Assembly: GCF_004765815.2 (NCBI RefSeq) | Contig: NZ_ML974128.1 | Span: 501,077 to 565,076 of the forward strand | Reading direction: 5' to 3' | Source of the DNA: Halorussus salinus | Lineage (GTDB): Archaea > Halobacteriota > Halobacteria > Halobacteriales > Haladaptataceae | Length of the DNA stretch: 64,000 nucleotides | Shown: piece by piece, positions 2,539 through 57,854 of the stretch | Position numbering within the stretch: position 1 is the first letter of the stretch | Layout: every line of letters starts with the position of its first letter | Notes under the pieces: model-generated | Told to the model about the DNA's origin: nothing | What the model saw: only the letters and a program-made list of their open reading frames with translations | Databases searched by the model: none | Position numbers and translations under genes: made by a program

Positions 2539-2616
2539 GATACTGAGTAGGAGGTATATTATTGTTGCTCTAACAATTCTACGACGTTACGAAAGAAATT
2601 TCTACCATTCCCCAAC

Positions 2617-2771
2617 GCGTGCGGGCGCGGCCCTCGTGGCCGCGCCCTTCCGCGCGAGGGCCGAGTAGCGCAGTCGGAGCAAAGCGGAGACGAGCAACGC
2701 AGGCGGTTGGGGAGGACGTGGCCGTCGCGGGTGCGGTGGCGGTTGCGGTCAACTCCTTTTTGTCGGCGATA
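2617..2771 (+). repeat. Dispersed structured element, copy A
   Basis: Non-coding segment that starts GCGTGCGGGCGCG, forms a perfect 10-bp hairpin (2623-2632 with 2638-2647, 5-nt loop), carries GCGCGAGGG, GGTTGGGGAGG and GGTGCGGTG blocks, and ends GGTCAACTCC, 3 nt, TTGTCGGCGATA. The same seven blocks occur in the same order on the minus strand at 57794-57642 (copy C). A related, repeat-expanded copy B lies at 24866-25081. From 2772 to about 2875 the DNA continues as degenerate GCGGT/GCAGTG repeats. The rest of the 2539-2969 gap holds no supported gene. Confidence 0.7.
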
Positions 2772-2969
2772 ACGCGGTTCGCGGTTGCTGTACGGTTCGT
2801 GTTCATGTTCGCAGTGCAGTCTGCTGTGGCGGTCGCAGTGCGGTCCGCTGTGGTGGTGCGGTCGAGACGGATTGTCGTGGAGTTCGCTGTCGCGATACCG
2901 TCGCGTCTGTTTCGAGTCCGTAGACGAACAGTATTTCCCCCTTCCGCGACCTACTATCCGGTAACACGC

Positions 2970-57513: not shown

Positions 57514-57600
57514 TGTTTCAGTGGTCGCGGTGTTTCGGTGGTCGTGGAGTTTCGGTGGTCGTGGAGTTTCGGTGGTCGTGGAGTTTCGGTGGTCGGTGTG
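57514..57600 (+). repeat. 17-bp tandem repeat
   Basis: Five consecutive units of TGTTTCGGTGGTCGTGG type (unit starts at 57514, 57531, 57548, 57565, 57582), with the later units AGTTTCGGTGGTCGTGG identical. There are no spacers and no open frame across it. It lies between the 57335 gene and element C. Confidence 0.75.
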
Positions 57601-57641
57601 GTCGGCGGAAATCGAACGTGGAAGGTAAAAAAGAAGCTAGC

Positions 57642-57794
57642 TATCGCCGACAACACGGAGTTGACCGCGTAGCACCGCAACCGTCACCGCGCAGCACCGC
57701 ACCAGCCTCACGCCTCCCCAACCTCGGCGGCCGCGGATGCGGCCGCCGTCCCTCGCGCGCTGGGCGCGTCGCCGTGGGCGACGCGCCCGCACGC
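57642..57794 (-). repeat. Dispersed structured element, copy C
   Basis: On the minus strand from 57794: GCGTGCGGGCGCG, a perfect 12-bp hairpin (57762-57773 with 57777-57788, loop GTG), GCGCGAGGG, a 9-bp hairpin (57726-57734 with 57739-57747), GGTTGGGGAGG, GGTGCGGTG, GGTTGCGGT, GGTCAACTCC, 3 nt, TTGTCGGCGATA. Seven blocks are shared in order with copy A at 2617-2771. It starts about 60 nt after the stop of the minus-strand gene at 57855. Confidence 0.72.
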
Positions 57795-57854
57795 GCCGGG
57801 TCGGAAATCTAGTCGAGCGCGTCCGAGGAGTGCCGAAGTCCCCGAACTCCCGAC

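Follow-up and report, generated by a model that had tools for sequence, protein, structure and literature searches.

A family of short structured repeats, dispersed through the genome of Halorussus salinus and present in many other genera of its archaeal class, was defined from two copies (A and C) in the 64,000-nucleotide stretch of DNA analysed here (the window). That the family is real, structured and dispersed is practically certain. The covariance model R1, built from 28 copies, gave at least 122 matches at E ≤ 0.01 in the host genome, a lower bound because only 150 candidates were scored with it, and a BLASTN search with copy C located over 40 distinct sites across six contigs. None of the 115 copies whose surroundings were analysed overlaps a predicted gene, all of them being intergenic, in agreement with the dispersed, non-coding, structured element proposed in a preliminary description of the window. 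The seven sequence blocks which that description had found in both segments are all present and in the same order. The segments are real as well, but their starts had been placed about 5 bp too late (2617–2771 and 57642–57794, against R1 starts at 2612 in copy A and 57799 in copy C). The hairpin said to open each copy is perfect, with 10 bp in A and 12 bp in C, but a second hairpin and an outer helix around stem 1 had been missed.

Architecture and covariation of the element

From 5′ to 3′, the element contains YYGGCGCGYG, stem 1, CGCGCGAGGG, stem 2, GGNTGGGGAGG, a G/T-rich tail and a 3′ module (Table 1), with a median length of 157 bp in the 47 copies with definable ends. Two stems of varying sequence are held in a conserved frame formed by YYGGCGCGYG, GCGCGAGGG and GGNTGGGGAGG. 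The block GCGCGAGGG is unchanged in all 28 aligned copies, and the G runs of the G-rich block are 86–99% conserved over 115 copies; judging by its sequence, the form GGTTGGGGAGG might fold into a two-tetrad G-quadruplex. The 3′ module has two alternative forms in the host, ending in GTCGGCAGTAG or CAAGCCTGAAG and often followed by CTAGCT. The window holds just two instances of GGTCAACTCC-N3-TTGTCGGCGATA, against none in 100 dinucleotide shuffles, and copies A and C are the only strong copies that the R1 search finds there.

Table 1. Coordinates of the two copies and their parts within the window
Feature	Position	Strand	Description	Basis
Copy A, whole element	2612..2772	+	Core 2612-2726 plus tail	R1, 67.2 bits; tail read off the sequence
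Copy A, 5′ domain	2612..2660	+	Outer helix CC/CGCGTG (2612-2621) with CGCGCG/GG (2651-2660), enclosing stem 1	
Copy A, stem 1	2623-2632/2638-2647	+	Perfect 10 bp, loop CTCGT	
Copy A, invariant block	2652..2660	+	GCGCGAGGG	Alignment of 28 copies
Copy A, stem 2	2660..2704	+	Class 2, central A.A mismatch	Sequence; layout as in 95 distinct copies
Copy A, G-rich block	2705..2715	+	GGTTGGGGAGG	Exact match
Copy A, G/T-rich tail	2716..2746	+	Holds GGTGCGGTG and GGTTGCGGT	Sequence
Copy A, 3′ module	2747..2771	+	GGTCAACTCC-TTT-TTGTCGGCGATA	Exact match
Copy C, whole element	57642..57799	-	Core 57701-57799 plus tail	R1, 80.4 bits; BLASTN seed of the family
Copy C, stem 1	57762..57788 (57788-57777/57773-57762)	-	12 bp, GGGCGCGTCGCC-CAC-GGCGACGCGCCC	Sequence and fold
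Copy C, invariant block	57750..57758	-	GCGCGAGGG	Sequence, alignment of 28 copies
Copy C, stem 2	57725..57748	-	Class 1, perfect 10-bp palindrome CGGCGGCCGC-ATCC-GCGGCCGCCG	Sequence and fold
Copy C, G-rich block	57713..57723	-	GGTTGGGGAGG	Exact match
Copy C, 3′ module	57642..57666	-	GGTCAACTCC-GTG-TTGTCGGCGATA	Exact match

The outer helix and stem 1 emerged from an RNAalifold run to which no structure was supplied, and over the 28 copies RNAalifold and pair counts recovered the same helices as in the 5′ domain of copy A. Pairing is found in 95.1% of cells against 88.1% after shuffling, and the covariation score is 0.242 against 0.128 (at most 0.081 with slid partners); none of 500 shuffles reached either observed value, results that are not probabilities because the alignment mixes related copies. 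By this comparison of sequences, the plus strand is able to fold into a nested hairpin on its 5′ side and another hairpin after it, with changes in the stems compensated. The earlier suggestion that pairing rather than stem sequence is kept was thus borne out, and the search for many copies with compensating stem changes was successful.

Stem 2 follows two main designs in the host, the perfect GC palindromes of the copy C type and a non-canonical type represented by copy A, which reads GCC-GA-GTAGC-GCA-[GTC GGA GC AAA GC GGA GAC]-GA-GCAAC-GCA-GGC. The non-canonical layout, seen in 95 distinct copies, comprises P2a (variants GAT/ATC, GAC/GTC, GCT/AGC and GCC/GGC), a GA/GCA loop, GNANC facing GNANC, a GCA/GA loop, a short stem and a loop. 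The five-base partners switch together (GTAGC/GCAAC 33, GGACC/GGACC 27, GTAAC/GTAAC 7, GCATC/GAAGC 7, GCAAC/GTAGC 6, GTATC/GAAAC 5, GGAGC/GCACC 4, with further combinations). Of the 95 copies, 91 retain the A.A mismatch at the centre. A third design, read by eye in relatives, has tandem G.A between sets of two Watson–Crick pairs and is capped by GNA, as in GAC-GA-CT-GA-GC-GA-CC-[GGA]-GG-GA-GC-GA-AG-GA-GTC from two congeners (G002 and G010). In the window, 0 G.A-zipper hairpins were found against 1.3 expected from a Markov control, so that they are no general feature of the window.

The loops of stem 2 are also biased. GNA was found in 55 of 70 triloops, and 0 four-base loops were scored; a simple hairpin search of 308 unique cores, which favours short loops and includes a handful of cores that are chance pattern matches, gave 190 GNA loops and 5 GNRA loops. 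RNA prefers GNRA tetraloops instead. In DNA, GNA and GNNA loops closed by two or more G-C pairs form extraordinarily stable mini-hairpins, the Tm of GCGAAGC being 78 °C (PMC4686876). It is chiefly because of this bias of GNA over GNRA that we lean to a DNA fold; the folded strand is probably DNA rather than RNA, although RNA, too, may form GNA loops.

Several neighbouring features were observed in addition. Short tandem repeats with units of 15–30 bp lie on one or both sides of many copies, as does the repeat CGACCACCGAAACTCCA that adjoins copy C at 57540–57640, and may reflect slippage at hairpins. At two host loci (G000 C4:123887 and C1:1272309) the 3′ module is also found inverted just downstream, so that two GTCGGCAGTAGCTAGC ends face each other. 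Stem 2 contains or adjoins extra, nested hairpin modules (TCTGCGCGAACGGATGTGAGCGCACGGCTCG...; GGCTTGCGAGACGCGAAGCGTCTCGC...) at G000 C6:149510, C1:159270, C1:815839 and C4:117621, and at C2:64570 and C3:176991. These modules recall the SMR-A repeats of Haloquadratum, which, according to PMC3119063, are short repeats inserting into the palindromes of other elements, PATEs among them; SMRs are described there with inverted terminal repeats, which the parent family here lacks. Finally, Halorubrum loci L189, L197, L234 and others carry stems such as GGTCC-GGA-GC-GAA-GC-GGA-GGACC, so that a second taxonomic family of the class shows this G.A and GNA design.

Distribution in the genome and across the class

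The genes flanking the oriented element are convergent in 33 cases, both against it in 30, both along it in 27 and divergent in 25, as counted with a home-made codon-usage gene finder that is adequate for orientation counts and not for exact starts. The orientation of the element to its neighbours is random, and a 3′UTR or 5′UTR regulator was rejected on this ground. A protein-coding role was discarded too, since the open frames crossing the element are purely mechanical and the copies differ by frame-breaking lengths; the preliminary description had likewise noted no reading frame. The same description had taken a lack of terminal inverted repeats to speak against a simple MITE. In the 47 copies with definable ends, the longest inverted match between termini is 3.70 against 4.16 for shuffled ends, and the mean flank match is 2.13 against 2.06 for swapped flanks, the ends having been inferred from conservation; a simple MITE requires both terminal inverted repeats and a target duplication, and neither was found. 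In their intergenic DNA the same genomes carry another repeat that is dispersed and structured, GGGTGGACTGAAAGGGGCCGCCCG(C/G)TCGCG ... CGCGAGCGGGCGGGGGCTTTC, which sometimes lies beside the element (L165, L168, L170 and L184; G000 C2:51295 and C1:740729 in the host).

The search of other haloarchaea called for by the preliminary description located the element widely. Exact-pattern copies are present in 17 of the 18 species of the genus, with 96 in G003, 3 in G013 and 0 in G008, and an R1 search of the congeners, whose counts are to be read as "at least", agrees with this picture; copy number ranges from at least 122 to 0. Of the 145 genomes in the class sample, 46 carry the exact pattern, and of its 58 genera at least 19 do; a reversed-pattern control gave 0 matches in the 145 genomes. 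Genera with the element include Halorubrum, Halorussus, Haladaptatus, Halosimplex, Halococcus, Natronorubrum, Haloterrigena, Natrinema, Halolamina and Haloprofundus. The core is common to these genera, and the tail past GGTTGGGGAGG varies by genus. A viral origin was rejected, as the sole pattern match in IMG/VR (L308) has unlike flanks and 0 model matches, and the bacterial pattern matches (L196, L205, L216 and L259) were set aside for the same reasons. No match to a known repeat was found in Rfam or among IS elements, and no description of the family was encountered in the open-licence literature, in Rfam or among the repeat classes in the accessible part of PMC3119063. Within the reach of these sources, the family is apparently undescribed.

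Age and loss of the copies

Regarding the history of the copies, 25 host sites were located in the congener G005 and read by eye: 8 carry a full element, 5 a partial one and 11 no trace, with 1 unjudged. Among 24 host sites read by eye in G009, 4 have the element, about 11 hold remnants, in the form of internal deletions or of a single surviving end, and the other 9 are without trace of it. In G013 the element is present at 0 of 11 sites, with 0 matches in 400 kb. A two-gene tree of the genus, with some weakly supported branches, places the copy-poor G013 near the copy-rich G015 and G002, and G008, with 0 copies, beside G006, with at least 67.

The ortholog of copy C in G002 has the same flanking sequence and a stem 2 altered on both arms, from GCGGCCGC to GCGGTCGC and, in the partner, from GCGGCCGC to GCGACCGC, a compensatory change of C-G to T-A. 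With identities of 0.69–0.90, orthologs resemble each other little more than random paralogs do (mean 0.72), and the best own paralog reaches 0.92. The many sites shared between species, the remnants and this low likeness of orthologs indicate that the elements are old, that their stems change fast and that copies are lost by deletion. No precise empty site was found at species-level divergence, the remnants indicating loss by deletion, and no recent transposition was seen, as the best own paralog is 92% identical and much of the absence is explained by deletion. The pairing could partly stem from the exchange of stems between copies rather than from selection.

Candidate readings of the fold

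Three options had been offered in the preliminary description, a structured RNA, a chromosome-organisation site and a mobile non-coding element. Our analysis leans to an old non-autonomous repeat folding as DNA; an RNA is less likely and an organisation site is without positive support. We give even odds to the reading in which such a repeat is recognised, as folded single-stranded DNA (ssDNA), by a putative protein. The recognised form would be a folded single DNA strand, exposed on the replication template or by cruciform extrusion, in which apical hairpins, mostly with a GNA triloop stacked on G.A motifs and with the constant A.A mismatch, would stand beside the G-run block. The putative protein reading this fold may formerly have moved or copied the element via ssDNA, much as an IS200/IS605 transposase or an integron integrase reads DNA hairpins, or may still bind it. 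The stems would be renewed by compensatory mutation, perhaps with exchange between copies, and copies would be lost through deletions across the hairpins. More tentatively, these may be class-wide chromosomal elements selected for a specific ssDNA fold, composed of the nested hairpin, a G.A-zipper hairpin with a GNA mini-hairpin cap and an A.A mismatch, and the G-run block, and read by a putative dedicated archaeal protein independent of known transposases. An essential site is disfavoured by the random spacing of copies and by the wide variation in their number, but the element may have a weakly selected role.

A multi-copy structured non-coding RNA, with every copy transcribed either on its own or by read-through and the function lying in the folded transcript, would account for the strong compensatory change and for the wobble on the plus strand, where pair 9–49 is T-G in 21 of the 28 copies and C-G in 7, as well as for the class-wide conservation of the core and for non-canonical motifs typical of structured RNA. 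It is unlikely, however, given that neighbouring genes show no preferred orientation, that no promoter-like conserved sequence was found in the 40 bases upstream of 108 copies and that Rfam 15 gave no match at its gathering scores, the best relaxed hits (E 0.16–0.29) lying far below them. In addition, GNA triloops dominate with GNRA tetraloops nearly absent, and some congeners have lost nearly all copies.

The density of about 30 copies per Mb on the largest contigs falls to 0 on the 0.57 Mb (573 kb) of small contigs, where 15.8 would be expected at even density (P ~1e-7). This distribution, together with a fold kept across the class, would suit a chromosomal working site kept for chromosome upkeep, such as one for a nucleoid protein, for SMC or topoisomerase binding or for replication pausing. 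We regard such a site as rather improbable, because the spacing of copies is random (CV 0.88; simulated 95% range 0.84–1.17), a result on which a regularly spaced organisation site was rejected, because the chromosome has no orientation domains, and because congeners with 0–7 copies are viable and Halorussus megaplasmids also carry a few copies.

Least likely is a PATE-type element, which would be what is left of an IS605/IS200-family transposon, or its passenger, and would be mobilised in trans by a Y1 TnpA. PMC3119063 describes Haloquadratum PATEs, reaching 177–194 copies, that also lack inverted repeats and target duplications and have near-terminal palindromes, but the readable 3′ ends of host TnpB genes have no sequence in common with the element, the sole significant model match at TnpA/TnpB loci comes from a nearby copy that is part of the count (L318), and the Y1 transposase (PF01797) is absent from G001, G002, G003 and G010, which hold 59–96 exact-pattern copies. 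An IS605/IS200 end or omega-RNA relic was rejected likewise, its ends being unrelated and the Y1 transposase being absent from element-rich species. Most host IS605-type TnpB genes lie on contig C8 (about 205 kb), which has 0 elements.

Bacterial repeats of the REP/BIME type with RAYT (Y1) transposases are intergenic, dispersed, hairpin-forming and non-autonomous, with a strand-specific fold, and the family shares all these traits; it differs in being longer and two-domain, and several copy-rich genomes have no resident Y1 transposase. The PATEs of Haloquadratum walsbyi resemble it in being haloarchaeal, short, non-coding and multicopy, without inverted terminal repeats or target duplication, with a palindrome near one end and with nested insertions (PMC3119063). 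Ends related to IS605-type transposons and some strain-specific insertions are described there for PATEs and were not found here, where insertion sites were compared at species-level divergence, whereas the spread over many genera, the fixed internal frame and the covarying stems are features of the family. Integron attC sites, according to PMC6393395 and PMC3053210, are recognised as folded ssDNA hairpins in which extrahelical bases matter and stem sequence varies, similar to our preferred reading; the family has no gene cassettes and a different motif set, so that the likeness is in working principle only.

With more than 100 copies per genome and a presence in many genera of an archaeal class, the family is yet apparently without annotation in the resources searched. 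Its stems provide a large set of natural experiments in compensation, and the chemistry of its loops allows a direct test of whether DNA or RNA is folded. Should the DNA reading be true, the family would point to a putative archaeal protein that reads ssDNA structure and would be a further case of non-B DNA under selection. If the fold is itself selected as ssDNA, the family would parallel, at the level of DNA, the structured RNA families that occur in many copies.
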